Below are positions 6,221 to 27,701 of a stretch of DNA of 27,701 bases, one piece after another (the first letter of the stretch is position 1; every line of letters begins with the position of its first letter). Below the pieces are notes generated by a model that worked only from the letters and a program-made list of their open reading frames with translations, did no database searches and was not told the origin of the DNA. The stretch lies in IMG/VR virus record IMGVR_UViG_3300011114_000135, positions 1 to 27,701 of that record; one strand, 5' to 3'. The stretch comes from a virus. The position numbers were made by a program, and so were the translations under genes.

Positions 6221-6574
6221 TTATAACTCGAGCGGGTCAAATCCTAATTCAGTAGCTATAGAATGCGCGCGCCTACGGAATGTAGCGTCATGTTTTGTCC
6301 ATGCATCAGATATGGTGCCAGACCTAGACATATGAATCATTTCATGCGCCATTGTCCTAATAACGGTATCTAAATGCCCGCACCTTGCGTCTGAGATAGT
6401 AATAACATGTTCATGTTTTTCCCCGTCGTCATAAAGATAAGAACCCATAGTCTCTGGATCCGTTTCCACGACAAACTTAATCTGCTCCGGTAAAGGCAAA
6501 GACCACTTCATAAATGGCTCGCAACAGTACAGGGTGGAATAGATATTTTTAAGGATTTGGGTAGTCAGTTTCAT
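6221..6574 (-). CDS. SprT-like zinc metallopeptidase
   Basis: The 117-residue protein carries TMAHEMIHMSR (His77, Glu78, His81) and a third ligand candidate in TKHDATFRRRAHSIATELG (His95), spaced as in SprT/SPRTN-type peptidases (HExxH then His about 14 residues on). The N-terminal part forms a compact helix-strand lead (YSTLYCCEPFMKW ... YLYDDGEKHEHVITIS). In cells SprT-like enzymes cleave proteins bound or crosslinked to DNA; phage versions are mostly untested. It is the last gene of the leftward unit, and its start overlaps the stop of the metallophosphoesterase by 4 bases, so the two are co-translated. Confidence 0.8.
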   Translation of the reverse strand: MKLTTQILKNIYSTLYCCEPFMKWSLPLPEQIKFVVETDPETMGSYLYDDGEKHEHVITISDARCGHLDTVIRTMAHEMIHMSRSGTISDAWTKHDATFRRRAHSIATELGFDPLEL

Positions 6575-7533
6575 GTTTTATTAATACAGCCACGGAATTC
6601 AAATCTTTGCTCCCCGCATACTTGAATTAACTCAGGAAGCATAAGCCTTCCCTCTTCAAACGACAGTAGGGCAAATCCAGAGCGCCAGTCTTTTGGACCA
6701 TCTTCAGTATAGCCCATGTACTGCTCTCCGTTGGGATCCGATAGGGTGCCTGTTTGGACGCCATAGCGGGTTCCGTTGTAATCGGTAAGGGGTTGTACAG
6801 CCAAATTGTGAGTATGGCCTGTAATCATGTTTACGCCCGCATTGAGGGCATTTGCCCTACCAGCGCCAAATCCACCCTTCCAGCGGTGCTTAATACAGGT
6901 ATCCTCATTTACCCAGTACGACCAGCAGGGTAACCAATGAGGAAAGTGATCTTTAAGGGTAAACCCTGATACTCCCTCGTATTGGGGTGCCTGAGCCGCT
7001 AGGAACGTTTCAAAGCGGGCGTCATGGTTACCCATTGTCCATATCAATTCAGCGCCTACAGCAGCCTTTTGAATGCCTTCCATGAAGGTTTGGCAAGCCT
7101 CAAGCTCTTCCTTGACGGTTGGACTCTTTGACCAGCCAATTCTAGGGTGCCGTGAGTTCTGGGATCCGTCAAACATATCTCCGTTGGCTACAACTACTTT
7201 AGGCTGGAATTCCTTAATGATAATCAGTAAAGCCTGATAAGCCGTTGTGTAATCGTCAGGCCAGAAATGAGCATCGCTGAAAACTACAACTCTACCCTTT
7301 TCCATTTCTATGCCGCGACGGGCATGACCAACAGTTTGTTCTAATTTTTTAGGCGCGGTATATCTATTGTCCTTCAAAGTGGGAAGGCTTATTTGATGCC
7401 TTGCCTCGATTGATCTGCGCCTGTTGTGGACAGATCGAACGTCCATGCCATGCTTTGCAGCAAACTTAATGGGACTACTAATAATTCTCCATTCGTTAAT
7501 AAACTCTAAGTCCGTCAAGTAATATCCAGCCAT
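6571..7533 (-). CDS. Calcineurin-like metallophosphoesterase with HTH-like N-terminus
   Basis: This 320-residue protein shows all metallophosphoesterase blocks: SDAHFWPDD (Asp87, His89), ANGDMFDGS (Asp119), TMGNHDARF (Asn169-His170-Asp171) and ITGHTHN (His240, His242), which bind two metal ions. The first about 55 residues resemble a helix-turn-helix (INEWRIISSPIKFAAKHGMDVRSVHNRRR), so it may be directed to DNA. Family members include Mre11/SbcD nucleases and diverse phosphatases; the exact substrate cannot be read from sequence. A strong GAGGAGAGG lies just upstream of the ATG. It forms a pair with the SprT-like gene. Confidence 0.85.
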   Translation of the reverse strand: MAGYYLTDLEFINEWRIISSPIKFAAKHGMDVRSVHNRRRSIEARHQISLPTLKDNRYTAPKKLEQTVGHARRGIEMEKGRVVVFSDAHFWPDDYTTAYQALLIIIKEFQPKVVVANGDMFDGSQNSRHPRIGWSKSPTVKEELEACQTFMEGIQKAAVGAELIWTMGNHDARFETFLAAQAPQYEGVSGFTLKDHFPHWLPCWSYWVNEDTCIKHRWKGGFGAGRANALNAGVNMITGHTHNLAVQPLTDYNGTRYGVQTGTLSDPNGEQYMGYTEDGPKDWRSGFALLSFEEGRLMLPELIQVCGEQRFEFRGCINKT

Positions 7534-7624: not shown

Positions 7625-10600
7625 TTACTTTTCCAAGCTTTCAACTTGATTATTAAACTGTGTCATAACACGGGTTTTACGGTCTTCTAATTGTTTAATT
7701 CTTGCTGCCGGTGCATTTTTTTCCAACAGGTCTTTTTTCTCTCTATTAATTTTAGAGATTTCATTTTCTAATCTATTAGCCTGTTGCCATAAACGCGCTT
7801 CAGGATGATCCCTTAAAAAGTCTGCTGTTGCAACGCCATCTTTTCGGCGACCCTTAATTTCATTTTCATAGTTAGCCATGCGGGTAATATTGTCATAGAA
7901 CCGATTAGCTTGTGTTGCTTGAGATTTAATATCACCATAAAATTTACCAACTAATGGAACTTTATGAGTAGGCAGTTCTTCTCCAGTAACGGCAGCAGTA
8001 ACCGTTTGCTCTACCTTAGATATCTCTCTTCCAACGCCGCCCGTCGCTTGACCAACTAAGAAGTCAATTTGATCTGGCGTAGGACTTACTATTCCTTTTT
8101 GGTACTTAGTTCCACCTGAAGCAAGGTTAAGAAAATAAGATAACTCTTTACCTAAATAACTTGCAGTCTCACGGGCGCGCGTATATCCGGGTGTCGGATT
8201 AGTAGCACGATCTTCTTTAGCAATTGGGCGCCCAAATGTATCTTTGTTCTCAATAATGGCTGCAATTGGGTCTAGCATAGTTGGAGATAACGATTGCATG
8301 GATAACCCAGCATTACCAATTGGGTTAAATGCGTCCATTAAAACACCTGTTAAATTAAGAGATTTCTTACCAACATTTTTACCACCGTTCATTACCATCT
8401 CAGTAGTAATGCGTCCCATGTTAGGAATAATGTGTAAACCTAATGGCATTGGAATGGCTATGTAACGTCCGTCTGGGAATGGAATAACTAGATTACGGGC
8501 TTTAATAAACTCTGGTGGTTCATCGTCTTTAAATCCCATCATAGCTAATGCTAACGCTTGAACAGAACCCAAAAGTAATCCACCAGCAACAATCTTTTTA
8601 CCTGCTGGGCCTCTAAGAGTTTCTGCTAAACGAGTAGTGCCTTGAACTGAAGCGTTATAAAAAGCATACAAAGCACCCATTTGTTGGGCGCGTTCACCTT
8701 TACGGTTAAAATTAACTGTAAGGTTCTTAGCAATGCTGGCTGCTTGTTCTTTGGATATGCCTTGATCTATAGCTACTTTATAAGCCGATAAGCGTACCGC
8801 GTTTTCCATTGCATCGTTATAGTCCGATAACCAATTAAATACCGCAGCAACACCTTTTTTAATGTTACCTTTTTCAAGGTTGCGCATTTCTTTTTCAATT
8901 ACATTTTGATCTGATCTGTTTTTGCTAAATTGATCACGGTATCCAGTAGCACCACCTTCTTGTTGATACTCTTCCCATAACTTAGCCCACTCACCCTTGG
9001 CTACACCTTTACCAGCGCGAGCAGCCCTAAGATCTGAATAGATACCCATTAAAGCTGGAAAAACGCCTGCCGTAACTTGAGCTTGCTTTCCTGCAATAGC
9101 AGTAGTAGATAAGTTAAATTGAGCGCCTAATGTATCCCGTATGAAGTTATATGCACCAAATACTGGGTTGTATTGGGTGTTAACAGAAGCTATCCAGCGG
9201 GTAACCTTGGCTGCGTTACCTAGCGCCCAACCCATTTCTTCGGCGTCCAAGTTCTTAATGGCTTGAACCATACGCATAGCTCTAGGATCACTTGCATTAA
9301 AGAATATAAAACGTTCTTGACCATTTATACGGATAGCAAACACGTTAGGACTGTTGCGTAAGATAGGGTTTACCTTATAGGTAACAGTACCAGTATCTGG
9401 GTCTAAGACCGCTGTTTGTGGTTCTTGAATGATGTTGGTTGCATCTGCTTCACTTATTCCAAGTTTCCTTAACTCAGCAAAAAGAGCCTTCTCGTTTTTA
9501 ATGGCATCAGGATTTACTGGCAACCAAAAATCTGGATTAGGATTCATAATGGCTAAACCATATAACGCCGTTCCTACACGAGCCTTTTCAGCGCGAACAA
9601 TAGCCCGCTCACGCTGGTTAGCAATGTTAGCAAATATGTCTGCTACTTCTTTAAACGAACCAAACGCCCGCTTACTTGCACCGCCGCGAGTCTGGAAACC
9701 TTGACCAAGCCCTGTATAGTTCTGAGCAAAGTCTAAGTCCTTACGCATTAAAGGAACATACTTTTTGTATGTTTTATTCCAAACATCAATAGTAGATTGA
9801 GCTTCTAACCCTGCATCAATTAATACCTGTTGAGTTCCTTTAACAATGGCATCAATCTTCTTGGCAAGCTCTTCTAATGCTTTAGCTTTTTCCGGTGGTA
9901 GCTTATCTAAGTAGTCTTGAGCATCTTTAGTGAACATACCAGAACCGCCGTCTGGCATTGCATTAGGATTAAGTGTGCCATCTTCTAGGAACTCAGGATT
10001 AATCTTGGCAATTTGTATGTTGCGTTCTTCTGCATGGCGAGCCTGCAAATAGGTATCAAACTCTACTATGCTAATACCTTGTTTAAGCATAGAACGTACA
10101 ACTGGCAATAGCTCATTGTTTAAGAAGTCTTTGGTACGTTTTGCAGTACGCCCGTGGTATAGCTCTTCTTTAAGATAAGCATTCCATTTGTCTGTAATCT
10201 CTTTGCCTTGGGAAATAATGGCCTGAATGACGCGTTTAGTATCAATGTACTTATCTTGAATCTTATAGATAAACCGTTCCATCTTAGAATCATCTGGAAT
10301 AGAAAAAACGGTGGCAGGAGAAACAACATCACCACGATAGTTACGGCGAATCCTGTTTAATTTCTCTATTCCTTTTGGACCTTCGGCTTCCATCTCAGAA
10401 CGACTAAACAATGCCATCTGACCTTTAGGAGCTTTCTCTGTAGCTAAAGCTTCAAACTGAGAGCGTGATGCAATCTCATCTAAGTATTGCTTGAATGTCT
10501 CATTAGGTAAATACTTCTGTCCTTTAAGGGTTTCGTAGAACTTGCGTAAAGCCGCACCTAACTTAGCAAAGAACTTGTCCACTATGGTCAATGGCTTTTC

Positions 10601-13600
10601 TGAAGATACTGCCCAACGAGCAACTTGGTCTGCATACCATTCACTAAAACTTGTCCAATATTCTGGTAAATTACGCCCCATCATTTTTGGATCTCTAATT
10701 ATGGTGGTTTGTGCTGTGGTTTTAGCTCGCAATGTTTGTAACAACTCTTTAGCTGTAGCATTTTTTTGTGATGCTAACCACTCTAAATGTGCATCCTGAA
10801 GCTTTTTCTGCATTTCAGGAGAGGCATTAATAAACATTTCTTTTTGATGAACGTGTCCTAGTTCATGCGCTATAGTCTCCAGCATTTTAGTTATGCTAGT
10901 AGACTTTTTGAAAACAACATAATAACTGCCATCGCTCATCAACTTCATTGCGCCGTTCATTTTTGGGCCAAGTGATGCCTGAATATCGCGATGAGGACCG
11001 GTAAAGTTATCTTTGTTTTGTTCTACAAAATCTTGAGTAGTTATATAAACATTTGCTTTTATGCCAAGTAAATTTTTCCATGCACGAACCACATTTCCAA
11101 CATTCTTAGGCACACCACCAGAAACAGATATGCCATTTTGGAATTTAATAAATGGTGTTTTGGCGTGTTTTATAGCATCTTCTGCTTCAATAGCATCTAT
11201 CTTTTGTTGAATAATAGCCTTTTCTTCTGGGCTAATTGGGGCTTTATTAATATTTGTGTAATATCTATCTCCTTTAACTACACGATAATGTGGGCCGCCA
11301 TAGTCGTTAAAAGAATGAAATAAACCAAGATCACCTTCTTGCCATAAAAACTTTCCAGAAAGTTCTTGTTTAGCCATTTGCTCTACCGTATCTCTAGAGA
11401 ACATAGAAGGTGTGTTTGTATCTACCTCTGGGCCTACATCTGGTTCTATACCACGAATTTGGTTTTGAATTTGAGTTACTAGTGCTGGATTACTAGACCA
11501 GTTTTCCCATGCCATTTTCTGTTGGCGTAACTCATCAATCTTGGCTTGTAAAGATGCTGGATCTCTAACATCTACGCCGTATTTCTTAGCCACTTCAGGG
11601 CGCTTACTTGCACCAGTTACCGCAGATAAATCTTGAGTAATATCAGCTTGTTTTTTAGATGCAATACTAGCCATCTCTTCAGCTTCACGCATAGCGCTAT
11701 CATCGAAGCCAAACATATCTACGGTTGTTTCACCGCGCCCGCCAGAAATAGCCTTAACAGCTTGCATCATATTGACTGCGTTGTTAATAGACTTGCCCTC
11801 TTGAATCAACTTCATGCCCAACGCTTGAACTGAGTCTTCTTTTGGCGCGGAGTTTGCTATTCTGGTTGCTGCCTCATCTGTGAGGACATCGGCACGATGG
11901 GCGGCAATGAGGTCGCTGCTGCCGTTAGTTGCGATGGAGTAAGCCCTTTGTCCAGTTGATCTTGCCAGAACTCCGCTAGATTCAGCTTCTTCTCTGGTGT
12001 AACCGGGTCTTTGGAAGTAAGTGACATAATCTTTTACCTTTCCTTGTCCTTCTCGAATATTAAGTAATGCATCTAATGACGCGGCTTGGGTAACATCAAA
12101 GCCCTCAGACTCTTTATGAACCTGTGCTGGAATGGTTGTTTCCCCGCTACGTTTGGCTAAATCTAGCCGGTGGCGACCAGATATAACTTCTAAATCACCA
12201 TTGTTTCTTTCCCATAATTGGATGGGCGCGACACCAGTACGTTCAAACTTACCGCCCAATGGCTCTACAACGCCCGTAGAGGCATCTGCACCGTATTTAA
12301 ACTGTGGGACATCCTTAGATATCTTCAGGTCTGCAACGGGTGCCTCTATGGTCTGTAGGCTAGGTATAACCATTGGCATTGATGGAATTTCTTCTGGTGC
12401 TTTAACTAAGGGTTTACCCTCAGTTTCTTCTAACATTGCAGTTGTATCTTGAGAAATACTAGGAGGAACAAATTGTTCTGTTGGGGCTGGTTCAATTGCG
12501 GGTTCTGCGGCTCTTACTGATTCATCTTTAATTAGTTGTTTTAATGGAGAAATCCTAGGCTCTCTATATGCCTGAATACCCCTTGCAACTCCACCTATTC
12601 CACCACCAGAAGCCGCGGCTCCACCGAATGCTTCTTTGTATTCACCATAAGCATCTTCTCCAGTTAATGGTAATCCAGCTTGATAGCGCTCTGCTACCTG
12701 CTCTAACACTTCAACTGGGGCTTCTGCTATAACGCCTGCTGTTGCTCCTACTGCAACTTTTTTGCCAACCTTTGCGGCTAATTGGCGGGCAGTTAATTCT
12801 TTTACCACCTCTGTTCCAGCTTTTTTTCCAAAAACGCCTAAGCCAAGCATAAACCTATCTGCAAAATAACCTAACGGAGCAGTCCCAGCGGCAGTAAGCG
12901 CAGCTTTAGCTACTTCTAATTCTTTTGGGTCGTTCTTTTCTTGAGCTTGACGTACCAAGAAATTACCAAACTGTTGAACTCCATATACGCCAATACCAAC
13001 CAAAGCTCCGCCAACCGGTGCAATAAATGGAGATGCTGCCACGCCTGCTGCTAGTGGAATTGCGGTTTGTGGTCCAGATTGCGCAATCTGCTCTGTTATA
13101 AATTTAGGAACCTGTGCAACCGCGGCGCCAAGTCCTTGTTTCTCGTATATACGCTCTAACTCCGCAACACTCATTCCGGGAACCTCCTGTGGAACTTGTT
13201 GCGCGGCTTTTATCTGTTGCATTTTTTTAAGAGTATTGGCATCGGTACCTAGCGTAGATGTAGCCGCTAAACCCAAGCCAGAAGCAACATCGCCAAGAGA
13301 AGCAATTCCTCGTTTACCGGCGGCTAATGTTCCCTCTATGATTCCTATGTCTTGTGCGCGTCTTTGTGATGGATCCTGCGCAATAGCCGGTTGAGTAGTT
13401 GGAGCAACCGTTTCAGTAGGCTCAGATACGCTTCTTAGGTAAGCTACCGGATCAAATGTGCTGGATGCTTTTTGTGAATCAACACTTCTTAAATATGCTT
13501 CAGGGTCAAAACTAGACGCAACACTTTCTTTTGGGGCATCATTTTGCACATCCGGCTCCACACCAACCGATCTAAGGTAGGCTACAGGATCAAATGCCAT
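7625..13600 (-). CDS. Giant polyvalent internal virion/ejection protein
   Basis: At 1991 residues this is the largest gene. In order: three copies of FDPxAYLRSV (residues 3-12, 31-40, 49-58); a hydrophobic Gly/Ala-rich region (about 175-300); a ParB-like domain with SGRHRLDLAKR near 473-483; a zinc metallopeptidase with AHELGHVHQ near 911-919 and SEWYAD near 986-991 as third-ligand site; long helical stretches; a region resembling LPD38 of polyvalent proteins (about 1470-1770) with a hydrophobic patch near 1665-1690; and a C-terminal coiled coil. Such proteins are packaged in the virion and injected with DNA, like T7 gp16, to build the ejection path and act on host factors. The role is inferred from family and position. 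The start overlaps the upstream stop (TAATG). Confidence 0.85.
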   Translation of the reverse strand: MAFDPVAYLRSVGVEPDVQNDAPKESVASSFDPEAYLRSVDSQKASSTFDPVAYLRSVSEPTETVAPTTQPAIAQDPSQRRAQDIGIIEGTLAAGKRGIASLGDVASGLGLAATSTLGTDANTLKKMQQIKAAQQVPQEVPGMSVAELERIYEKQGLGAAVAQVPKFITEQIAQSGPQTAIPLAAGVAASPFIAPVGGALVGIGVYGVQQFGNFLVRQAQEKNDPKELEVAKAALTAAGTAPLGYFADRFMLGLGVFGKKAGTEVVKELTARQLAAKVGKKVAVGATAGVIAEAPVEVLEQVAERYQAGLPLTGEDAYGEYKEAFGGAAASGGGIGGVARGIQAYREPRISPLKQLIKDESVRAAEPAIEPAPTEQFVPPSISQDTTAMLEETEGKPLVKAPEEIPSMPMVIPSLQTIEAPVADLKISKDVPQFKYGADASTGVVEPLGGKFERTGVAPIQLWERNNGDLEVISGRHRLDLAKRSGETTIPAQVHKESEGFDVTQAASLDALLNIREGQGKVKDYVTYFQRPGYTREEAESSGVLARSTGQRAYSIATNGSSDLIAAHRADVLTDEAATRIANSAPKEDSVQALGMKLIQEGKSINNAVNMMQAVKAISGGRGETTVDMFGFDDSAMREAEEMASIASKKQADITQDLSAVTGASKRPEVAKKYGVDVRDPASLQAKIDELRQQKMAWENWSSNPALVTQIQNQIRGIEPDVGPEVDTNTPSMFSRDTVEQMAKQELSGKFLWQEGDLGLFHSFNDYGGPHYRVVKGDRYYTNINKAPISPEEKAIIQQKIDAIEAEDAIKHAKTPFIKFQNGISVSGGVPKNVGNVVRAWKNLLGIKANVYITTQDFVEQNKDNFTGPHRDIQASLGPKMNGAMKLMSDGSYYVVFKKSTSITKMLETIAHELGHVHQKEMFINASPEMQKKLQDAHLEWLASQKNATAKELLQTLRAKTTAQTTIIRDPKMMGRNLPEYWTSFSEWYADQVARWAVSSEKPLTIVDKFFAKLGAALRKFYETLKGQKYLPNETFKQYLDEIASRSQFEALATEKAPKGQMALFSRSEMEAEGPKGIEKLNRIRRNYRGDVVSPATVFSIPDDSKMERFIYKIQDKYIDTKRVIQAIISQGKEITDKWNAYLKEELYHGRTAKRTKDFLNNELLPVVRSMLKQGISIVEFDTYLQARHAEERNIQIAKINPEFLEDGTLNPNAMPDGGSGMFTKDAQDYLDKLPPEKAKALEELAKKIDAIVKGTQQVLIDAGLEAQSTIDVWNKTYKKYVPLMRKDLDFAQNYTGLGQGFQTRGGASKRAFGSFKEVADIFANIANQRERAIVRAEKARVGTALYGLAIMNPNPDFWLPVNPDAIKNEKALFAELRKLGISEADATNIIQEPQTAVLDPDTGTVTYKVNPILRNSPNVFAIRINGQERFIFFNASDPRAMRMVQAIKNLDAEEMGWALGNAAKVTRWIASVNTQYNPVFGAYNFIRDTLGAQFNLSTTAIAGKQAQVTAGVFPALMGIYSDLRAARAGKGVAKGEWAKLWEEYQQEGGATGYRDQFSKNRSDQNVIEKEMRNLEKGNIKKGVAAVFNWLSDYNDAMENAVRLSAYKVAIDQGISKEQAASIAKNLTVNFNRKGERAQQMGALYAFYNASVQGTTRLAETLRGPAGKKIVAGGLLLGSVQALALAMMGFKDDEPPEFIKARNLVIPFPDGRYIAIPMPLGLHIIPNMGRITTEMVMNGGKNVGKKSLNLTGVLMDAFNPIGNAGLSMQSLSPTMLDPIAAIIENKDTFGRPIAKEDRATNPTPGYTRARETASYLGKELSYFLNLASGGTKYQKGIVSPTPDQIDFLVGQATGGVGREISKVEQTVTAAVTGEELPTHKVPLVGKFYGDIKSQATQANRFYDNITRMANYENEIKGRRKDGVATADFLRDHPEARLWQQANRLENEISKINREKKDLLEKNAPAARIKQLEDRKTRVMTQFNNQVESLEK
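13427..13594 (-). repeat. Three FDPxAYLRSV-coding repeats
   Basis: Codons 3-58 of the giant protein contain three near-identical ten-residue motifs with Ser/Pro/Ala-rich spacers of 18 and 8 residues. Similar FDPDAYL-type repeats open other large phage virion proteins (from memory). They look like short linear binding motifs rather than a folded domain. Confidence 0.8.
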
Positions 13601-15576
13601 TATTTAAACCTTGCTTTAATTGCGTTAGATGCTGGATCAAGAGGATGTGCATTTGCCCATTCTAATGCCTCTATATCTGCTGGCGTGTACTTTTTACCAA
13701 AAAATTGAGATATAGCTCCGGGGGGTGCAACCTCTGGCTTTGGATAAGGTGATGGCTCTGCAATAAACTTAAATCCGGGAACCTTGGCTTCTGCCATAGC
13801 ATTATTTCTTAAACGGTTTAACTCTTGTTGATTCCATGTAAATTCAGGAGTACCGGGTGTTAATTGTTGTTCAGAAATCATTGCTGCAATTTTCTTAACG
13901 GTTGGATCTGAGTTGTACCTAGCAATAGCGGTTTCACGAGCATCACTAGCTTCTTTAGATAAAGATGCAGCAAGACGTTCTTTTTTAATTTCTTCTGATG
14001 CAATTGCCGCACGGTTTTTCTCTTCAGCAGTATCTTTTGCCCTTTGATTTGCGGCTGCTATTGCAAGGTTCTTAATTTCAGAATTTTCTTGAGCGGTTAA
14101 TGCTCTTATATCCAATTTATCTAATGCAGCTAAATCAGCAGAGCGTTGTTTCTTCAACGCGCCATAAGTACTGATGCCTTGTTCTGCGCCCTTACCAAGA
14201 TTAGCCATCATATAAGGAGATGTACCAGCCATCATTCCAAACCCAGCCTGCATTAATGCAAGATATGCATCTTGTTTAGAGCCAGCTTTCATTTCTTCGC
14301 GCTCTTGTGCGCTTCTAGCCAGCATACGATCAAGCGCGCTTTGTGGTTTTGAATAACTTGTAGGTGCTGTTCCATATAAATCTTCAGATGCAAATGGAGC
14401 ATAAGGATCATTTGCATATACTCCAGTATTTTCTGTTGGGCTATATTCAAATGGAGCATATGGGTCGTCTATATATTGTGGAGCTTTTGGCATTAACTCG
14501 CCTTTACCGTATGGATCTTCTCCAACAAGACTGCTATCTTCTCCGCTATAGCTATTAATTCCACCACTAGAAAAAGCAATCGCACCACCCCCAGATAACT
14601 GAGTAATTCCACCTTGATTAAAGTTGGATGCATACTGTCTAGTCTCGCCCGGGATAGGACCTTTTCTGCCACCAGCAATCCACTTATCTACATTACCGGG
14701 TCCCCAGTTGTACGCCATAGCTGCTTCTTTTTCATTGCCATAGCGTTGCAACATAGCATTGCCATAATCACGTCCAACACGGTTCATTTCATCTACGCTA
14801 TTGTTTTGTGCTGGTCTAACACCAAAACCCGGATCGCGTAATGTATTAGGCATAGTTTGCATACTAGCCATAGCGCCTTTAGATGAGGTTAGAATATTGC
14901 CCTTTTCGTCATAGTCACGTCCGCGGCTTTCTAAATGCCTAATTTTATTTAAAAAAGCTGTATCTTTAATTCCATTAGAAGAAGGTAGTGGTTCTTTATA
15001 AGTTATACCTTTATTTACTTCACTTTTTTCTTCTGGGTTAATACTAAATTTTGCGGCTGATTTTTCTTCTTTTGAAATACCGGCACTTGATTCAGCTCTT
15101 GGAATACCAGCAATTGCATTTCCTGTGCTTTCTTTAATCATAGAAAGCATTTCCATCATTTTTCTTTCATCTCTTGCGTCTTGAATATCATCTTCGTCTT
15201 CATCATCGTCTTCATCGTCTACTAATCCTCTGTTTGCAAACGATACAATTCCACCGTTAGCCATGCCTTGTGGCATACCTGTGGGTAACTGAGTAACTCC
15301 GGGCTGGTTCTCTGGGAGTGCTATTTGTGGCTGTTGAGGTATTGCTTGTGGAATTCCTTGAGGAATTTGTGGGGGTATCTGGGGAGCGGCTTCATTTAAC
15401 ACGTCGGCTGCCACGGTAGAAGCTGGAGGTTGTGGCGTATTCTGTAAATGCTGGCGGCGCTGAATCTCAGCTAAAGCTAGAAACTGAGGAACTACGCTAT
15501 TGGGATCACGGGCGTAATTAACTAATGTACCTTGTGGCACATCCTTTAACTGTTCAGATAATTGTGAAATATTCAT
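13600..15576 (-). CDS. Virion protein with lytic transglycosylase domain
   Basis: The 658-residue protein has a Pro/Gln-rich N-terminus (about 48-105), a NGGIVSFANRG motif, an acidic run of Asp/Glu (about 119-130), then an SLT-type lytic transglycosylase domain (about 205-310). The latter shows HLESRG with the catalytic Glu near 216, SKGAMASMQTMPNT, and AYNWGPGNVDKWI. This would cut peptidoglycan locally during DNA entry, as the transglycosylase part of T7 gp16 does. After it come further glycine motifs (GGITQLSGGGAIAF), Tyr/Pro-rich repeats with DPYAPF, and a long Ala/Glu-rich helix. It precedes the giant protein and is probably part of the same internal complex. Confidence 0.8.
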   Translation of the reverse strand: MNISQLSEQLKDVPQGTLVNYARDPNSVVPQFLALAEIQRRQHLQNTPQPPASTVAADVLNEAAPQIPPQIPQGIPQAIPQQPQIALPENQPGVTQLPTGMPQGMANGGIVSFANRGLVDDEDDDEDEDDIQDARDERKMMEMLSMIKESTGNAIAGIPRAESSAGISKEEKSAAKFSINPEEKSEVNKGITYKEPLPSSNGIKDTAFLNKIRHLESRGRDYDEKGNILTSSKGAMASMQTMPNTLRDPGFGVRPAQNNSVDEMNRVGRDYGNAMLQRYGNEKEAAMAYNWGPGNVDKWIAGGRKGPIPGETRQYASNFNQGGITQLSGGGAIAFSSGGINSYSGEDSSLVGEDPYGKGELMPKAPQYIDDPYAPFEYSPTENTGVYANDPYAPFASEDLYGTAPTSYSKPQSALDRMLARSAQEREEMKAGSKQDAYLALMQAGFGMMAGTSPYMMANLGKGAEQGISTYGALKKQRSADLAALDKLDIRALTAQENSEIKNLAIAAANQRAKDTAEEKNRAAIASEEIKKERLAASLSKEASDARETAIARYNSDPTVKKIAAMISEQQLTPGTPEFTWNQQELNRLRNNAMAEAKVPGFKFIAEPSPYPKPEVAPPGAISQFFGKKYTPADIEALEWANAHPLDPASNAIKARFK

Positions 15577-18466: not shown

Positions 18467-19111
18467 CTATAGCCTTGATACAAAAGATAATGTAGCCACT
18501 ACGGACGGGCTAACAGGTCTAGCATAGGGGGTTGTAAGCGCTGGCAAACTAACTAAAGACACGGTGTTAAAGTCCGTAGCCCAGTACAAAGCAACACTAT
18601 CTCCAGAGTTTAAAGAAAGAAAAAAGTTGGCCGCCCCCAGTGCATAGTCATAAGTAGTGGCGTTTTTTCTTGCTGGTAACACAATTCTACTAGCCGTAGC
18701 TGATATATCTGCCCCATTTTTACGCAACCAAATATCTGCATAATGAATATCATTGTCGTTATTTTGAATTTGAACGCTAAATTGGTAGTTGTAAATGCCG
18801 CCTTGTGACACAGTAATGGCGCTATTAGCTAAAGTCATGCCACTAGAATAATCAAGAGTATTAAGGGTAACTAGGGTAGCGGTGTTTGCCGTAGCGGTTA
18901 CATTAGAGTTGTTCTGAACAGATATATAGGTATTTCCCAGATACTGCCCACCAGTACTTCCTAATAACGCCCCGGTAACGTTATCTACTTGGTTAAAGTA
19001 TAGGCGTAATGCATTGCTAAACTGATCTTGATAGTTTTGGTTGTACTCTACCGGCCCAATAGGTAAGTTAGGTGCAACGGTATTACGGATGCTTGTAGCG
19101 TTTGATGCCAT
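18467..19111 (-). CDS. Jelly-roll-like virion protein
   Basis: The 214-residue product starts with a short lead (APNLPIGPVEYNQNYQDQFSNALRLYFNQVDN) and continues as a beta-rich domain. NSAITVSQGGIYNYQFSVQI, ADIWLRKNGADI and NFFLSLNSGDSVALYWATD are reminiscent of C1q/TNF-like jelly-roll domains seen in phage head decorations and fibres. No enzymatic motif is seen. It may be a decoration or receptor-contact protein on the virion. The start overlaps the stop of the 717-residue protein (TAATG), with GGAGA upstream. Confidence 0.6.
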   Translation of the reverse strand: MASNATSIRNTVAPNLPIGPVEYNQNYQDQFSNALRLYFNQVDNVTGALLGSTGGQYLGNTYISVQNNSNVTATANTATLVTLNTLDYSSGMTLANSAITVSQGGIYNYQFSVQIQNNDNDIHYADIWLRKNGADISATASRIVLPARKNATTYDYALGAANFFLSLNSGDSVALYWATDFNTVSLVSLPALTTPYARPVSPSVVATLSFVSRL

Positions 19112-21264
19112 TAGCTTCTCCGTCCGTCTGGTCTAATATCAATCCGTGGTGCGCCCAACTGCCAAGATACCCCTAAGCCATCAGAACTAATCTTCATTGC
19201 CATTTGGCGGGCGCGAATCCTTGTATAGATCTGGCCTGTAAATTCTTGAACCGTATATTGTGGGTATACAGCATAGTTATTACCGCTTACTGTTGCGGCA
19301 TTTGATGGGCTTCCATAGGCTGAACCTGAGTTTTGGCGGGGTTGTAATTCCATCGTAACAACTGGGCCATTTACATTTGATCCATTAAAGTTAACGTCGG
19401 GCAGCATTCTCCAGACATAGCCAAAGTTGTGTCCATCCCCAATATCAAAATCAGAAGACTGCACATAGGCATAAATAGGTAAGGAAGTAGCCGTAGACAA
19501 ATCGTCATTACCAAGCTCGTGGTTAATCACACAGCCAGTCGAGTTTAATAAAGCATCCTCACCGTTTTGGAATGTACCCATTGGGTTTTGGCGAAGTCCT
19601 GAATCTAACCAAGACGTACGATTTAGTGTGCCGTAATACCAGACCCGATCAAGGTAGTTATAGATCACATACTTATCAACTACAACCGAGTTAGTAGAAC
19701 AATAGAACCACCAGATTTCATTAAAGCCTTCGTTACTACCAACAGTAACCTGCCAAGATTGGTCTTTATTAAGGTCAGCAAATATATATTGACGCAGCGC
19801 ACAAGGTAAAGTTTCTACACGACCAGAGTACATATAAAACTTATCTCCACCCATCCAATAGGTAATATTGTTAACCGTAATAACTGTGTTTGGTCCCATT
19901 ACCGAGATGTTATCCATCAAGACCTGAAAGCCCCATATATAGGGTGGCCCTAAATACTGCATAGAGTAAAGGGTTGAATCTGTTAATACTAATATTTCTT
20001 GGCGGGTATTAATCGTAGTAACAATATAAGAGCCATGCGAGAGCCTAAACTCACCTGCTTGGTTTGTAATATCTGGTACCCATTGGTATGGGTTTTCTTG
20101 GTCTGACCACCGTACCAACATAGGATCAAAGTCCGTTAATGGATCTGTAGGATCGTAAGAATTAGCACCAAAAGCAAACACAAAACGTTGGATATCAGAA
20201 GCTAAAACCTCAAGTGTTTTATAAGGAACAAACTGCCCGCTATAAGATGCAGTATTAGATAAATCTGATAACTTTTTACCACGATACGATGTTCCTAGGT
20301 TTGCGTCCCAATAGAAAAGCTGCCCACCACGTTGAGCATATACAAGATCTTGACCGTAGTTATCATTAGTCCAAATAACAAGCTGTTCACCTACACTAAC
20401 CCCTTGAGGAGCGGCGTTACCCCATCCATATTGACCCCAAGTACCAGCACCCCAACCATTACCATTAACATAGTATTCAAGTCCTACATGGCACAATACT
20501 TGGCAAGTTACATTTCCACCCACATTAGAGGCAGAAGACGTACAGTAAGTTACATTAGATAAGTTGTTATCTGAGCTTGAAGCCAAGAAGTAATAGACCG
20601 CTGAACCGTAGCTTAATATTTGATGCTCACCGTTAATAACCGTATTAGCCAATCCGCCAACCGAAACTGCGCAGTTAGATAGGATAAGATAGTCTCTATT
20701 ATTAGCGTTATTGGTGCCATCAAAAATTTTAACAAACGCGCTAGAAACATTAGCATTTGCCGTATGGGAGGCCGCGGTGGTGTTGTTAACTCCACGTACA
20801 CAGTTTGTGGCTGAATTAGCACTTAAAGTGTTGTAAAAAATAACTTCGCTATCAATCTTAACGTAGCCGTCTTGTGGCGGAAAATTAGTAGATGCAGTAA
20901 ATAATAGAGTTGTTGTAGTTGCGTTTACGTTAGCCGCAAGGGTAGTACGGCCTGTAGATAAAGCATTGCTTAAAGTAAGCGTCGATACAACAGGAGTAAT
21001 ATCGTAATACTGCCCGCCATTTTCTACATAGTATTTAAGGTTAGTTCCAACTCCAAGGTAGTTATACCCAGATAAAGTAGCCCAGTTCCACATAGAACGA
21101 CATACACCCCAGAACTTATATGCACTTAATCTAATCCAGCCACCAAGCTTTTCTGGAAAGCCAGATCTAAACCGAATCTTATCGCCGTCATAGAAGCCGC
21201 CTTCATTTGAGTAGTTAGTGCCTTCTCTATTAAGACCGGGTCTTAAAACCACCTTAGTTAGCAT
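19111..21264 (-). CDS. Large structural protein, possible tail hub or DNA stabiliser
   Basis: A 717-residue, beta-rich, Trp/Tyr/Gly-rich protein starting LTKVVLRPGLNREGTNYSNEGGFYDGDKIRFRSGFPEKLGGW. Blade-like recurrences (YLGVGTNLKYYVENGGQYYDITPV, WGQYGWGNAA, TLYSMQYLGPP, WYYGTLNRTSW) suggest a propeller fold, like packaged-DNA stabilisation or tail-tube hub proteins such as P22 gp10; this is structural analogy, not recognised homology. Residues about 107-176 hold a separate small module (FPPQDGYVKIDSEVIFYN ... CVRGVNNTTAASH) that I recall as recurring in phage virion proteins. GGAG lies 10 bases upstream of the ATG, overlapping the divergent endonuclease promoter. Confidence 0.65.
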   Translation of the reverse strand: MLTKVVLRPGLNREGTNYSNEGGFYDGDKIRFRSGFPEKLGGWIRLSAYKFWGVCRSMWNWATLSGYNYLGVGTNLKYYVENGGQYYDITPVVSTLTLSNALSTGRTTLAANVNATTTTLLFTASTNFPPQDGYVKIDSEVIFYNTLSANSATNCVRGVNNTTAASHTANANVSSAFVKIFDGTNNANNRDYLILSNCAVSVGGLANTVINGEHQILSYGSAVYYFLASSSDNNLSNVTYCTSSASNVGGNVTCQVLCHVGLEYYVNGNGWGAGTWGQYGWGNAAPQGVSVGEQLVIWTNDNYGQDLVYAQRGGQLFYWDANLGTSYRGKKLSDLSNTASYSGQFVPYKTLEVLASDIQRFVFAFGANSYDPTDPLTDFDPMLVRWSDQENPYQWVPDITNQAGEFRLSHGSYIVTTINTRQEILVLTDSTLYSMQYLGPPYIWGFQVLMDNISVMGPNTVITVNNITYWMGGDKFYMYSGRVETLPCALRQYIFADLNKDQSWQVTVGSNEGFNEIWWFYCSTNSVVVDKYVIYNYLDRVWYYGTLNRTSWLDSGLRQNPMGTFQNGEDALLNSTGCVINHELGNDDLSTATSLPIYAYVQSSDFDIGDGHNFGYVWRMLPDVNFNGSNVNGPVVTMELQPRQNSGSAYGSPSNAATVSGNNYAVYPQYTVQEFTGQIYTRIRARQMAMKISSDGLGVSWQLGAPRIDIRPDGRRS

Positions 21265-21267
21265 TTG

Positions 21268-21284
21268 TGCTATACTCCTATAAT
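21268..21284 (+). promoter_or_regulatory. Promoter for GIY-YIG endonuclease gene
   Basis: An extended -10 (TGCTATACT, 21268-21276) is followed closely by a perfect TATAAT (21279-21284), 21-38 bases before the ATG at 21306. No strong -35 is seen; extended -10 promoters often lack one. This suggests host sigma-70 RNA polymerase transcribes the endonuclease independently of, and against, the late unit. Confidence 0.55.
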
Positions 21285-21305
21285 GGTATTAATAAGGAGA
21301 GTATT

Positions 21306-22028
21306 ATGTTTGTATATATCTGGAAACACAATGAAGTTCCTTTTTATGTAGGCGCAACAAAGTCTAAAAGGCGTCTTAACCCATTTAATAGCGGGGGACA
21401 CAGAAACTGGCTTTGTAACAATAAAATTGCTGAAATTGGTATTAAAAATGTAGTTGTTGAAATTCATACCGTTGACACTTTGGAAGAAGCCCAAATACTA
21501 GAGCGTAGTTTAATTGAAAAGTACGGAAGAATCCAACTTGGTAACGGGCCTTTAACTAATTTAACAACTGGTGGTGATGGTGTACATGGAATGTCCGATG
21601 AAAATAAAGCGAAATTAAGTCTGCGCATGAAAGAAAATAATCCATTTTTAAAACCAGAAATTAGGGCAAAACAAAAAGCTAGAATGCAAGATCCAGATGT
21701 ACAATTAAAATTGCGGGGCGAAAATAACCCAGCCAAACATCCAGAAGCTAGAGCAAAAATACGAGCTAAATGGCAAGAGCCAGAATTTCGAGAAAAACAA
21801 TGCCAGCGTAAATTAGGCGTACCCATCCACTCTGATGAAAGCAAAGAATTGCGCCGCCAAAAACTTTTAGATCCAACTAATCCTATGCGCGAATTCCATA
21901 AGATATTAAACACTGATCCCAAAATTAAAGAAAAGCGGGTTGCTACACTAAAAACACCAGAAGTCAAAGCAAAAATAGTGGCGGGCTTAAAAGCATCATG
22001 GGCTAGGCGTAAAGGTGTCATTATGTAA
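21306..22028 (+). CDS. Free-standing GIY-YIG homing endonuclease
   Basis: The 240-residue product has an N-terminal GIY-YIG domain: VYIW (3-6), FYVGAT (13-18), KRR (21-23), the catalytic Glu probably at 66 in ILERSLIEKYG, and NLTTGGDG. The rest is a basic DNA-binding tail: a NUMOD3-like element (GMSDENKAKLSLRM) and then repeated units of the form xPE(x)RAKxxAxxx. I start it at the ATG at 21306 after AAGGAGA, not the in-frame TTG at 21267. It lies opposite to all surrounding late genes, between endolysin and the 717-residue protein, and its stop overlaps the endolysin stop by 8 bases. It likely cuts a cognate site in phages lacking it. Confidence 0.85.
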   Translation: MFVYIWKHNEVPFYVGATKSKRRLNPFNSGGHRNWLCNNKIAEIGIKNVVVEIHTVDTLEEAQILERSLIEKYGRIQLGNGPLTNLTTGGDGVHGMSDENKAKLSLRMKENNPFLKPEIRAKQKARMQDPDVQLKLRGENNPAKHPEARAKIRAKWQEPEFREKQCQRKLGVPIHSDESKELRRQKLLDPTNPMREFHKILNTDPKIKEKRVATLKTPEVKAKIVAGLKASWARRKGVIM

Positions 22029-23915: not shown

Positions 23916-24127
23916 TAGAAAGTTACTCCAAATACAGGTACAGAAGTCACAGCGACAGCTAGATTCTGTTTAGGGTCAGATAAATCGGCGCCACAATCAT
24001 TACATCTTAGCGCCGCTAGTTCAGCTTCATCTACATCTCGGTTACAGTTTGGGCAAAGGATTTCTATTTTCGTTGCACAGTCCGCGTCTTTACCGGGAAT
24101 GTCTTGGGCTTGAGTTTCTATAATCAT
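23915..24127 (-). CDS. Small zinc-ribbon protein
   Basis: The 70-residue product has two CxxC knuckles, LCPNCNRDV (Cys25, Cys28) and LRCNDCGADL (Cys42, Cys45), forming a zinc ribbon, followed by a hydrophobic C-terminus (NLAVAVTSVPVFGVTF). No catalytic motif is present. It overlaps the Gly-rich fibre gene upstream by 4 bases and the Lys/Pro-rich peptide by 1. Its role between adhesin and lysis genes is unknown. Confidence 0.7.
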   Translation of the reverse strand: MIIETQAQDIPGKDADCATKIEILCPNCNRDVDEAELAALRCNDCGADLSDPKQNLAVAVTSVPVFGVTF

Positions 24128-25497
24128 GCTGTATAAGTTCCTGATCCAGTATATTTAAGAATGGTATTTGCACCGCTAGTTGAGACCGTGGGGCTTCCTG
24201 TATGAGTGCCAGAATATGAAGCTGTTGGCATAGATAGGATCACAACTCCTGAACCACCATTACCGCTAGCAACAATGTTACTTCCTCCGCCGCCTGAACC
24301 TGAGTTTGCAGTACCCGCACCAGCAGCGGTATTGCCTTGGCCTTGACCACCACCAGCAGCACCCGCACCACCAGCACCGGGTGAGCCACCGCCGCCACCA
24401 CCGCCTCCAGCGTAGTCTACAGAACTACCAGTAATAGTTGAGTTTGTACCTGCACCACCATTACCACCAACTGAAGTGCCTGAGCCGCCCGCCCCACCAG
24501 AACCACCACCACCGCCGCCGCCAACATCTTCACCGCCGTTACCACCAGCAGCACCGCCTCCTGATGCACCGCCACCGCCGCCTTGAGCTGTTGCCGCATT
24601 TCCACCACCCGCACCTGCAGCACTAGAAGCAACGCCAGTAATAGTACTTATTGAACCACTTGCAGCTTGAGCGCCACCAGCACCAATTGTCATTGTTAAA
24701 ACAGTAGTTCCCGGAATAGCTCCGGTTGTACTAGCCGCTACTGCTCCTGAACCACCGCCACCTCCGCCAGCACCTCCAAGTCCCCCGCCACCACCGCCAC
24801 CTACAACCAAATAAGAGATGGTATAAGAACCTTGATTTACAACTACAAATTTCACCCACTTGTCGTTTGCATAACCTTCATAAAATTCTCCTGAAGTGTT
24901 ATAACGAATTAATCCCTCAATGGGGGAAGCTGTTCTTTGTGCCGTTGTTCCAACTGGTGTATACCATTGATCCGTAGATGCGTTGCCATATATATTTGCA
25001 CCAACAGTAAGGCTAGTTCCAATAGATGCAGTAGTTCCAACAGATAAACTTCCTCCAGTAGAGGTATTCCCAGTAACAAATAAATTGCCGTTAATGTAGT
25101 TAAATGAAGTTGCGCTATAGAAATCAGTACCGTCACAAAAAATAACTTCACTACCCGCGTTGGCGATAGAAACGCCGTTTCCAGATGAGGTTTTAATTGT
25201 TACGGTAGCATTAGATCTATTTCTAACAATGTATACTTTTTGTGATGGGGGCGCAATAACGTTGCATGGGGCGCCAAGTAGTCCGTTAAAAATTAATACG
25301 GCATTTCTGGCTTGATCTGATAGTCCGTTATAATCAGTAAGTGTTACGTCGCCAGTAAGCGTAATTGGAAGTACCCCAGTAATTGCTTGTTCTAGCAAGG
25401 TTCCTAGGTTTGTATTCGTAGTTGTCCCCCACGTACCGGCCTGTTCGCCATTTCCGATAAGTTCTAGTTTGAGACTGGGTGAGTATGTTGAGGCCAT
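24124..25497 (-). CDS. Tail fibre/adhesin with Gly-rich domain
   Basis: The 457-residue protein starts with a fibre N-terminal module (SPSLKLELIGNGEQAGTWGTTTNTNLGTLLEQAI), typical of phage tail fibres. It continues with GTT/SVGT-type beta repeats, then the PVGTTAQRTASPIEGLIRYNTSGEFYEGY module, then about 200 residues dominated by glycine (YLVVGGGGGGGLGGAGG...) and a C-terminal cap ending SGTYTA. Long glycine tracts like this can form polyglycine-II bundles, as in the S16 gp38 adhesin, and carry the receptor-binding loops. It probably contributes to host recognition. AAGGAAAAAT precedes the ATG. Confidence 0.8.
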   Translation of the reverse strand: MASTYSPSLKLELIGNGEQAGTWGTTTNTNLGTLLEQAITGVLPITLTGDVTLTDYNGLSDQARNAVLIFNGLLGAPCNVIAPPSQKVYIVRNRSNATVTIKTSSGNGVSIANAGSEVIFCDGTDFYSATSFNYINGNLFVTGNTSTGGSLSVGTTASIGTSLTVGANIYGNASTDQWYTPVGTTAQRTASPIEGLIRYNTSGEFYEGYANDKWVKFVVVNQGSYTISYLVVGGGGGGGLGGAGGGGGGSGAVAASTTGAIPGTTVLTMTIGAGGAQAASGSISTITGVASSAAGAGGGNAATAQGGGGGASGGGAAGGNGGEDVGGGGGGGSGGAGGSGTSVGGNGGAGTNSTITGSSVDYAGGGGGGGGSPGAGGAGAAGGGQGQGNTAAGAGTANSGSGGGGSNIVASGNGGSGVVILSMPTASYSGTHTGSPTVSTSGANTILKYTGSGTYTA

Positions 25498-25506
25498 ATT
25501 TTTCCT

Positions 25507-26409
25507 TTATGCTGCTATAAGTTCCCACTCTGTGGTTTCTGAATTACTAATTTGACTCCAGCTAGTGCTAGAATCATCGTCAATATCTGTCCAATTTGGG
25601 TCTTGGTCGTTAGGTATTTGACCCCAAACCAATACATTGCCAATTATACCCGTAGCTTGAACGCCTGTTAAGTAGATATTGGCATTGGCTTTAGCTGTTA
25701 CTGTACCTACATATCCTACTGCCTGAACGCCAGTGACCGTTACATCAATACCTACAAATATACTAACTGTACCAAGCTGGGCGGGGGCTGCAATTCCCGT
25801 TAAATAGACATTTGCATTAGCCGCGGTAGTGACTGTTCCTACTTGCCCTACTGCTTGGACTCCTGTTACATAAATATTGGCGCCCGCTTTGGCAACAACG
25901 GTTCCAACCTGACCAACGCCTTGAACCCCAGTTGTTATTACATTAGCACCAGCAGTGGCTGAGGCAGTCCCTAGTTGAGTGACCCCTGTAACACCCGTTA
26001 AATTGACTACAGCACTAGCAGTTGTGGTTACGGTTCCTACTCTGCCTACTGCTTGCACCCCAGTAACATTTACCCCAATACCTTGTTGAGTAGTTACAGT
26101 TCCTAATTGTGCTGGAGCTTGAAGTCCTGTAAGATTTACTACTGCACTTGCAGCTACTGTTAGGCTGCCTACTTGTCCTACGCCTTGAACGCCAGTAAGA
26201 TTTATTACCGCGCCCGCTTGAGTAGTTACAGTACCAACCTGACCAACAGCCTGAACACCCGTTAGATTGACTACCGCATCGCCAGTAACGTTAGCAGTAC
26301 CTAAATATCCAACCGCCTGAACGCCAGTAACATTAACAACAATGCTAACCGCACCGCCGGGCAATGCACCAAACGGGGTCGAGGCAAATGGGTCAAAGCC
26401 AAATAGCAT
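25507..26409 (-). CDS. Eleven-fold 22-residue repeat virion protein
   Basis: The 300-residue protein begins FGFDPFASTPFGALPGG, then residues 24-265 are exactly eleven units of 22 residues with consensus VNLTGVQAVGQVGTVTTxAxA, each likely two beta strands. The tail (266-300) carries spaced tryptophans (DPNWTDI, SWSQIS, EWELIAA). Regular beta repeats suggest a solenoid or a fibre shaft. It lies between two Gly-rich fibre genes, so a tail-fibre or shaft role is the best guess. Units 1-5 resemble units 6-10 (see findings). The start follows the previous stop by 2 bases. Confidence 0.75.
   Translation of the reverse strand: MLFGFDPFASTPFGALPGGAVSIVVNVTGVQAVGYLGTANVTGDAVVNLTGVQAVGQVGTVTTQAGAVINLTGVQGVGQVGSLTVAASAVVNLTGLQAPAQLGTVTTQQGIGVNVTGVQAVGRVGTVTTTASAVVNLTGVTGVTQLGTASATAGANVITTGVQGVGQVGTVVAKAGANIYVTGVQAVGQVGTVTTAANANVYLTGIAAPAQLGTVSIFVGIDVTVTGVQAVGYVGTVTAKANANIYLTGVQATGIIGNVLVWGQIPNDQDPNWTDIDDDSSTSWSQISNSETTEWELIAA
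25615..26340 (-). repeat. Eleven tandem 66-base coding repeats
   Basis: Codons 24-265 of the repeat protein form eleven 66-base units with no indels. Matching segments 330 bases apart (for example those starting at 25721 and 26051) encode the same unit variant, which shows a five-unit block duplication. The repeats are coding, not CRISPR-like. Confidence 0.85.
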
Positions 26410-26411
26410 AG

Positions 26412-27464
26412 TTAGGCCGTATAAGTACCGCTAGCAAAAAACTGCACAATTGTATTTGACCCTGAAGTGGATATTGATACATTAGCCCCTGTATATGTTC
26501 CAGAGTAGTTTGTAGTTGGGACAGAAAGGATACAAATTCCTGAACCTCCGCTAGTGCCATTATTACCGCCACCAGCTCCGCCACCTGTGTTAACAGTTCC
26601 AGCGGTTCCCGCAGTACCCCCACCACCACCATTTCCAGTGCCACCAGCTCCGCCACCACCCGTACCTCCTGATGTTCCAGCGCCATTAAAGCTTCCCGCA
26701 CCGCCACCACCAGCACGAGTTACGGCTGAACCAGTAATAGATGAAGATAGTCCGTTACCACCTGCGCCGCCAGCGCTATCTACAGAATTTCCACCCACTG
26801 CTCCCGCACCGCCACCACCCGATCCAGTATAAGGAGCGGTATAGCTACCAGAAGATGTACCTCCTGAATTTCCTTGACCACTTGTTCCAGCGCCACCAGT
26901 ACCACCATTATTACCGCCGCCACCGCCTGAGCCGCCAGTACCACCAGCGCTAGCAAATCCACCACCTATACCACCACCTACAGTAGAAACATTAGTAAAG
27001 CTAGTTCCTGTAATAGTTGAATTAGAACCTTGCGTATTTATGGACCCCCCGCCACCTACAGTAACTGTGTAAATCGTACCCGGAGTAAATGTAGCAGTAT
27101 TAGATAAATATCCACCGGCTCCACCGCCACCGCCTTGTACTGAACTAGGCGTACCACCACCACCAGCAATAACTAAATAAGGAACAGAATATGGAGTGGC
27201 GGCTTTAATTGTTGTCCAAGCTCCACCAATATATCCCTCTAAAAGAATTAATGTAGTGTTGTATCTAATCATGCCGTTAACGCCAGTAGGTCTTTCGGCT
27301 GTAGTTCCTCTAGGAACAATCATTGCGCCAGTAGAAGTAAAGTTAGCGTTTTGCAATGTATCAATAATTACTGCTGTTGTATTAGCAGTTTGCAAGCCCA
27401 ACGAACCAGAAGCATCGACTGTTTCTGTTAGTCCAGATGTAGAAGCATTAATAAAAGTTGTCAT
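26412..27464 (-). CDS. Gly-rich tail fibre/adhesin paralogue
   Basis: A 350-residue protein starting TTFINASTSGLTETVDASGSLGLQTANTTAV. It then has VPRGTTAERPTGVNGMIRYNTTLILLEGYIGGAW, a long glycine-rich domain (PYLVIAGGGGTPSSVQGGGG...), and an end (ILSVPTTNYSGTYTG ... SGTYTA) that closely matches the C-terminus of the 24124-25497 protein. The two share the glycine domain but differ in the N-terminal attachment part. I chose the ATG at 27464, which overlaps the previous stop as ATGA; a TTG at 27479 is possible. Probable role: receptor-binding fibre tip or paired fibre component. Confidence 0.75.
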   Translation of the reverse strand: MTTFINASTSGLTETVDASGSLGLQTANTTAVIIDTLQNANFTSTGAMIVPRGTTAERPTGVNGMIRYNTTLILLEGYIGGAWTTIKAATPYSVPYLVIAGGGGTPSSVQGGGGGAGGYLSNTATFTPGTIYTVTVGGGGSINTQGSNSTITGTSFTNVSTVGGGIGGGFASAGGTGGSGGGGGNNGGTGGAGTSGQGNSGGTSSGSYTAPYTGSGGGGAGAVGGNSVDSAGGAGGNGLSSSITGSAVTRAGGGGAGSFNGAGTSGGTGGGGAGGTGNGGGGGTAGTAGTVNTGGGAGGGNNGTSGGSGICILSVPTTNYSGTYTGANVSISTSGSNTIVQFFASGTYTA

Positions 27465-27701
27465 GGGAAAGTTATCCAAACTCCAGAAACATAAGCCTCT
27501 AGATTAGCTGTAGAAGTGTTATATCTAATCATGCCATTTACAGCAGTAGGTCTGTTGTTTGTAGTTCCAGCAGGAACTATTACGGCGCCATTAGAAGTAA
27601 AGTTAGCGTTTTGATCCACACCAATAACTACTGCATTAGATCCATTAGTTTGCAATGCAAGGTTAGCCGTACCGTCTGAGCTTTTAATAATAGCTGAGAA
27701 G
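27461..27701 (-). CDS. Partial tail-fibre protein, cut by window edge
   Basis: The frame is open to the right edge and ends in TGA at 27461. The visible C-terminal 79 residues read FSAIIKSSDGTANLALQTNGS..., then NFTSNGAVIVPAGTTNNRPTAVNGMIRYNTSTANLEAYVSGVWITFP. The PxGTTxxRPTxxxGMIRYNT module is shared with the next two fibre genes, so this is another member of the fibre set lacking the Gly-rich domain. Its N-terminus lies outside the window. Confidence 0.7.
   Translation of the reverse strand, partial: FSAIIKSSDGTANLALQTNGSNAVVIGVDQNANFTSNGAVIVPAGTTNNRPTAVNGMIRYNTSTANLEAYVSGVWITFP

Follow-up and report, generated by a model that had tools for sequence, protein, structure and literature searches.

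A strict 22-residue repeat protein encoded beside a tail-fiber-type gene is a candidate fiber rod or connector in a family of phage proteins

The 27,701-nucleotide (nt) stretch of viral DNA analyzed here (the window) carries an unannotated gene that can now be linked to a recurring phage fiber module. The gene encodes a 300-residue protein built on a strict 22-residue repeat, and we put the probability that this protein serves as the rod or connector in the host-binding fiber of the phage at about one half. We read it this way because the repeat lattice is conserved, because related proteins differ in length by whole units, and because the gene is paired with a fiber-type gene and is fused in some relatives to glycine-rich or lectin domains. 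The reading also draws on a gene cluster that holds a virion structural/stabilization gene, an endolysin gene, and an Rz-like gene, on a dN/dS of 0.06 over units 1 to 8, and on an all-beta AlphaFold2 model. It is weakened by the lack of any profile match for the repeat protein and by those relatives that have no fiber gene downstream.

The repeat gene has the following parts.

25507-26409, minus strand: repeat-protein gene, a translated open reading frame (ORF) of 300 amino acids with an ATG start.
26350-26409, minus strand: conserved N-terminal peptide MxGFxPFAxxPFA (residues 1 to 20), common to most relatives, e.g., MFGFSPFASAPFAD.
25669-26328, minus strand: ten canonical 22-residue units (residues 28 to 247) at exact 22-residue spacing.
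25756-25821, minus strand: unit 9 (residues 197 to 218), replaced relative to the close relative L003.
25603-25668, minus strand: eleventh unit, canonical in its first half and followed by the C-terminal cap, which is invariant in the alignment of relatives.
25615-25638, minus strand: C-terminal cap NVLVWGQI (residues 258 to 265), within the eleventh unit and conserved family-wide.
25510-25602, minus strand: C-terminal tail with an 11-residue tryptophan repeat (W273, W284, W295).

The TG[V/L/I] anchors of the 300-residue protein fall at residues 28, 50, 72, 94, 116, 138, 160, 182, 204, 226, and 248, and each of the ten anchor-to-anchor spacings is exactly 22 residues, with no indels. The protein comprises 10 full units and a capping half-unit. 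An initial annotation of this DNA had described 11 repeats of 22 residues without an indel; the eleven anchors, the strict spacing, and the absence of indels all stand, but the eleventh unit is canonical in its first half only. The span given there, 25615 to 26340, is the same block as 25603 to 26328 in the TG register, read in a different phase. Within each unit, the glycines at positions 2 and 10 are near invariant. The tryptophans of the tail follow a period of 11, half of the main period, and across the whole family the W-to-W spacing after the last unit is exactly 11 in 180 of approximately 198 cases; VWG[QL] is present in 46 of the 93 distinct proteins. Compared with L003, the repeat gene is under purifying selection, with a dN/dS of 0.15 over the whole gene and 0.06 over units 1 to 8.

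The repeat protein had no match in Pfam (E 1), PHROGs (0.1), or NCBIfam (0.1), including the tail-fiber family profiles of all three, and matched PDB sequences only at chance level. A literature search on 22-residue phage repeats and on repeat-tuned phage fiber length found nothing specific. By whole-chain model comparison, the protein matches A0A6J5P871 from an uncultured Caudovirales phage (UniProt/BFVD; E 1.4e-12, TM 0.79/0.74, 37% identity); A0A6J5QA73, also from an uncultured Caudovirales phage and named glycine-rich domain-containing, follows at E 3.6e-3 and 28% identity. Both are uncharacterized, with no function assigned. The same 22-residue units occur in two metagenome-derived records, each time in a product annotated "hypothetical protein": phage DSL-LC04 (WJZ48131.1 in OR003939.1) and MW202675.1 (UOF80312.1), the latter with fewer units than the window protein. 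DSL-LC04 resembles the window in having a downstream fiber-type gene and a "stabilization protein" gene but differs in the WG-rich motifs that lie between its units. Judging from these searches, this is an apparently undescribed family, lacking both a Pfam, PHROGs, or NCBIfam profile and a relative of solved structure, and its members are recorded as hypothetical or uncharacterized.

We fetched approximately 90 distinct relatives from viral contigs, which carry from 3 to 43 units per protein; L145, picked up as a glycine-rich fusion, was left out of the family as collagen-like on reading. Successive units are separated by exactly 22 residues in 815 of 892 spacings (91%). Several members combine the repeats with other domains. 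In L018 and L122, the repeats are preceded by a fused glycine-rich domain; in L040 and L042, they are split by a LamG-like lectin domain; and long inserts similar to those of L040/L042 lie between units in L015 and L016. The repeat gene of L133 and L134 encodes 923 amino acids, in which nine 22-residue units come after a long nonrepeat N-terminal part. Two pattern scans of 84,980 cellular genomes, which rest on a few peptide patterns, gave no confirmed relatives.

Length differences within the family point to gain and loss of whole units. The window protein and L003 have 11 units, while L004, L005, L006, and L011 have 14, and in the alignment the extra three units of L004 to L006 are placed after unit 3. 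L024 and L038 differ by exactly 264 bp, or four units, in flanking DNA that is 99.97% identical over 3,012 bp on one side and 99.3% identical over 1,561 bp on the other, and only 6 bp (GGCGAA) are shared at the junction. Because the junction shares so little sequence and the units have diverged from one another, the difference is less likely to stem from a collapsed assembly, though it still could. Whole-unit differences of three, four, or five also separate other pairs of relatives, and some close pairs show length differences of other sizes. In L013, a 300-nt block is repeated at a distance of 198 nt (three units apart) with 91% identity. L021 shows tandem amplification of the 11-residue W repeat of the C-terminal tail (6667 to 6798, with a 33-nt period), and L029 has fewer copies, which suggests that the tail lattice likewise changes by whole units. 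Taken together, these comparisons support the view that, among related phages, the repeat protein changes length by entire units. The earlier suggestion that length evolves by block duplication is borne out to that extent, since whole-unit and block changes are found in related phages, but not in the form proposed for the window.

That form was a five-unit block of 110 residues (330 bases), duplicated in this lineage to give 5 + 5 + 1 units, a history that we now consider improbable. Mean unit identity is 14.2 of 22 residues at lag 5 versus 10.0 to 12.6 at the other lags (lags 1 to 8 were compared), and lag 5 ranks first whichever of the 22 unit phases is used, with nominal p values of 0.001 to 0.05. 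Also consistent with a duplication are a nominal excess at the homologous lag-5 pairs of L011 (p 0.011 to 0.019) and the relatives L092 and L101, which differ by exactly five units. The similarity at distance five is thus the strongest in every phase, but it is small and in most phases is not significant once the choice of lag is corrected for: family-wise p over lags ranges from 0.012 to 0.26 (median, 0.10) for protein and from 0.09 to 0.34 (median, 0.18) for DNA. Of five close relatives, four (L003, L004, L005, and L006) have no excess at the homologous pairs.

Codon usage and individual unit pairs argue in the same direction. Third codon positions in the window array show no lag-5 excess. 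Synonymous codon sharing between window units is at chance overall (0.335 versus a null of 0.339) and at lag 5 (0.357 versus 0.317 ± 0.050), whereas the same test on the recently expanded arrays of L013 and L021 gives z above 21. Tandem Repeats Finder made no call at the locus and, together with chance-level codon sharing, this indicates that the window array holds no recent duplication. The pairing of units 1 and 6 does not hold up, with only 11 of 22 residues in common in the TG frame; unit 2 is closest to units 4, 5, and 8 rather than to its supposed partner, unit 7; and units 4 and 9 are alike in the window but unlike in L003. With 11 or 14 units in the close relatives, the length difference known here amounts to three units instead of five. 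On chance synonymous sharing, the family-wise lag tests, and the homologous pairs of relatives, a recent five-unit duplication in this phage is effectively refuted.

The likeness of unit 9 to unit 4 is better explained by replacement of a whole unit. L003 is 89% identical to the window protein and also has 11 units, yet its unit 9 is a different unit, and the two proteins differ there without any change of frame or phase. In its FVGIxVxV half, unit 9 of the window protein looks like the units that L012 and L039 carry in the third position from the end. Since the likeness of units 4 and 9 is specific to the window and this half-unit has its match in L012 and L039, unit 9 was probably replaced as a whole unit. 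Window units match the units of relatives mostly by position in the array, not their lag-5 partners, which argues that they are old and separately maintained.

To place the repeat gene in its context, three further genes of the same region are listed.

24124-25497, minus strand: downstream tail-fiber-type gene, with a constant N-terminus MASTYSPSLKLELIGNGEQAGTWGTTTNTNLG and a C-terminal glycine-rich domain.
26412-27479, minus strand: upstream gene for a glycine-rich protein, with a TTG start as called and an in-frame ATG at 27464.
19111-21264, minus strand: P22-gp10-like tail stabilization/accessory protein of the same module (phrog_3287, virion structural protein; E 2.3e-58).

The downstream gene follows the repeat gene after a gap of 9 nt. 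Its product matches phrog_31104 in PHROGs through the constant N-terminus (E 3.5e-15) and reaches the gathering score of Pfam Gly_rich_2 (E 3.2e-10; 40.9 bits against a cutoff of 24.3); the upstream product falls just below that cutoff (24.2 bits) and matches phrog_2295 (E 3e-39). These are the "two adhesins" of the initial annotation, and their glycine-rich domains would fit a fiber tip, which falls short of proof of adhesion. Homologues of the 19111-21264 product are annotated "stabilization protein," and the same module also encodes a GH19-type endolysin and an Rz-like protein.

The pairing recurs across the family. A fiber-type gene with the same type of N-terminus lies directly downstream (within 450 nt of the repeat gene) in 68 of the 79 relatives with room to judge, in 55 of them after 8 to 12 nt, and the length of its product ranges from 152 to 1,319 amino acids across relatives. 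The downstream product of L018 matches PHROGs tail fiber profiles. Some relatives have no downstream fiber-type gene. In DSL-LC04, the homologue is flanked on one side by a gene annotated as an adaptor protein and on the other by a chaperone-domain and lectin cluster, in which the neighbor of the homologue is annotated as an intramolecular chaperone domain protein.

Several other genes deserve mention in their own right. L078 and L103 carry a 190-amino-acid ORF (starting with MFVYKITNxVNGMLYIGIT, GIY-YIG-like by eye) between the repeat gene and the usual position of the fiber gene. The window itself has a GIY-YIG endonuclease-like gene at 21267-22028 on the plus strand (Pfam PF01541; E 6.5e-5), opposite in strand to the endolysin and stabilization protein genes between which it lies. 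There is no gene at this position in L005 and L006 and a different 149-amino-acid ORF in L003, and the gene may be a mobile, homing-type element. On the minus strand, 7625-13600 encodes a 1,991-residue protein that takes up more than one-fifth of the window and has a large polyvalent protein-associated domain, LPD38 (E 1.1e-40). The 658-residue product of 13600-15576 (minus) has a lytic transglycosylase SLT domain (E 2.1e-6) and is probably a virion-associated cell wall enzyme. A calcineurin-like phosphoesterase (6571-7533, minus; E 9.3e-9) adjoins a SprT-like metalloprotease (6221-6574, minus; just under the cutoff).

We modeled the window protein as a monomer with AlphaFold2, using a 22-row alignment from which L008 was excluded. 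The model is all-beta, with nine-residue strands and two-residue turns (pLDDT 75, pTM 0.74). The ten canonical units show a beta-strand pattern with a period of 11, and the N-terminal peptide (residues 1 to 20) is of low confidence. Foldseek gave no confident match in the PDB (best E, 7.8e-3). In structural alignment, matches to beta-helices reached Z scores of 15 to 24; curli CsgA (8c50) was the best (Z 23.9, rmsd 8.3, 270 residues, 7% identity). The beta-solenoids beside which the model falls also include the HMW1 secretion domain (2odl; Z 19.2, rmsd 2.7) and, at a lower score, a tail fiber of an Agrobacterium phage (9rkv; Z 12.7, rmsd 3.7). The AlphaFold2 model of the relative L079 has a pLDDT of 46.6, strands of approximately 20 residues, and a different pattern; all that the two models have in common is an all-beta repeat that turns near positions 17 and 18. 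AlphaFold2 is reported to over-predict solenoids in tandem repeat proteins, yielding confident yet unrealistic ones where the repeats are perfect (PMC11795689), a bias that touches perfect repeats more than diverged ones like those of this family. The window protein is predicted to be solenoid-like with moderate confidence, and because of the disagreement with L079 and the published bias, we stop short of claiming a solenoid. A beta-solenoid rises by approximately 0.48 nm per rung or unit. If the protein were a solenoid, 11 units would span approximately 5 nm, which is short and counts against a long shaft.

How might such a protein work as a rod or connector? Each 22-residue unit would form a beta repeat of two strands, with turns at positions 6-7 and 17-18. 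The protein would be part of the virion, in whatever oligomeric state the rod may adopt, and would dock through its two ends, the N-terminal MxGFxPFAxxPFA peptide and the C-terminal NVLVWGQI with its 11-residue W repeats. The downstream tail-fiber protein, with its constant N-terminus and exchangeable C-terminus, would then carry the tip. Unit count would set the length of the rod, and in-register recombination would allow whole 22-codon units to be gained, lost, or swapped, with a possible effect of length on binding and infection.

One alternative is that the repeat protein serves as an adhesin or display scaffold in its own right, either lying on the virion or binding directly to host or particle surfaces by way of its repeat faces, glycine-rich caps, and lectin inserts. 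We hold this to be possible but doubtful. The lectin domains between the units of L040/L042, the similar inserts of L015/L016, the glycine-rich fusions of L018 and L122, and the lectin genes beside the DSL-LC04 homologue would suit such a role, but most members consist of repeats and short ends only, and the conserved terminal motifs and close fiber-gene pairing suggest a connector. A neck, collar, or head decoration protein, outside the tail fiber, seems unlikely, as the immediate downstream partner is a fiber-type gene and the window gene is flanked by two glycine-rich-domain genes, even though several relatives lie a few genes away from head-tail adaptor-type proteins and "head and packaging" PHROG proteins.

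The structural alignment raises the question as to whether the protein could be a phage-encoded, curli-like functional amyloid. CsgA gave the best alignment and likewise has approximately 22 to 23 residues per repeat and a variable number of units (PMC10192328). Yet the curlin motif (PF07012; N-x-Psi-x-Psi-x-Q), expected twice per CsgA repeat, is absent from the window protein and has 10 matches among 1,263 family units. There is no Pfam match even at E 1, the alignment has an rmsd of 8.3 at 7% identity, and the solenoid bias of AlphaFold2 may contribute; we regard this idea as very improbable.

Beyond the single gene, a bolder proposal can be put forward tentatively: the family could be a widespread, undescribed class of fiber connector with a strict 22-residue beta repeat, whose copy number of 3 to 43, changed by in-register recombination between nearly identical phages, would tune how far an exchangeable receptor-binding tip reaches or how such tips are spaced. 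For annotation, the family has a usable signature in its 22-residue TG units, VLVWGQI cap, and 11-residue W repeats. Natural allele pairs such as L024 and L038, which differ by whole repeats in almost identical surroundings, offer a handle on whether fiber length affects infection.

Several known systems bear comparison with the repeat protein. Curli CsgA is like it in repeat length, variable repeat number, and modeled monomer topology and unlike it in motif and context. A collagen-like phage fiber was rejected, as the window protein has no run of four Gly-X-Y triplets. The adenovirus fiber shaft, a triple beta-spiral, is built of repeats of approximately 15 residues in an intertwined trimer. 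It works in a similar way to what is proposed here, as a viral rod of short beta repeats, yet the two have no sequence relation, the adenovirus knob is on the same chain as the shaft, and an adenovirus-type triple beta-spiral is ruled out by the 22-residue period. One adenovirus fiber has 22 shaft repeats (PMC8869412). In T4, the long tail fiber protein gp34 forms a beta-rich proximal rod bearing distal fiber proteins from other genes (PMC5537660); its triple beta-helix has no clear sequence repeat, and gp34 has no sequence match to the repeat protein. The glycine-rich fiber tips Pam3 gp24 and S16 gp38 (PMC9608196) gave no sequence match in the PDB; they resemble the products of the neighboring genes in having long glycine-rich domains, a likeness that belongs to the neighbors and not to the repeat protein. 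A repeat-built viral fiber element with a variable number of repeats is already known, the adenovirus shaft being an example (PMC8869412), and what appears to be undescribed is this family.
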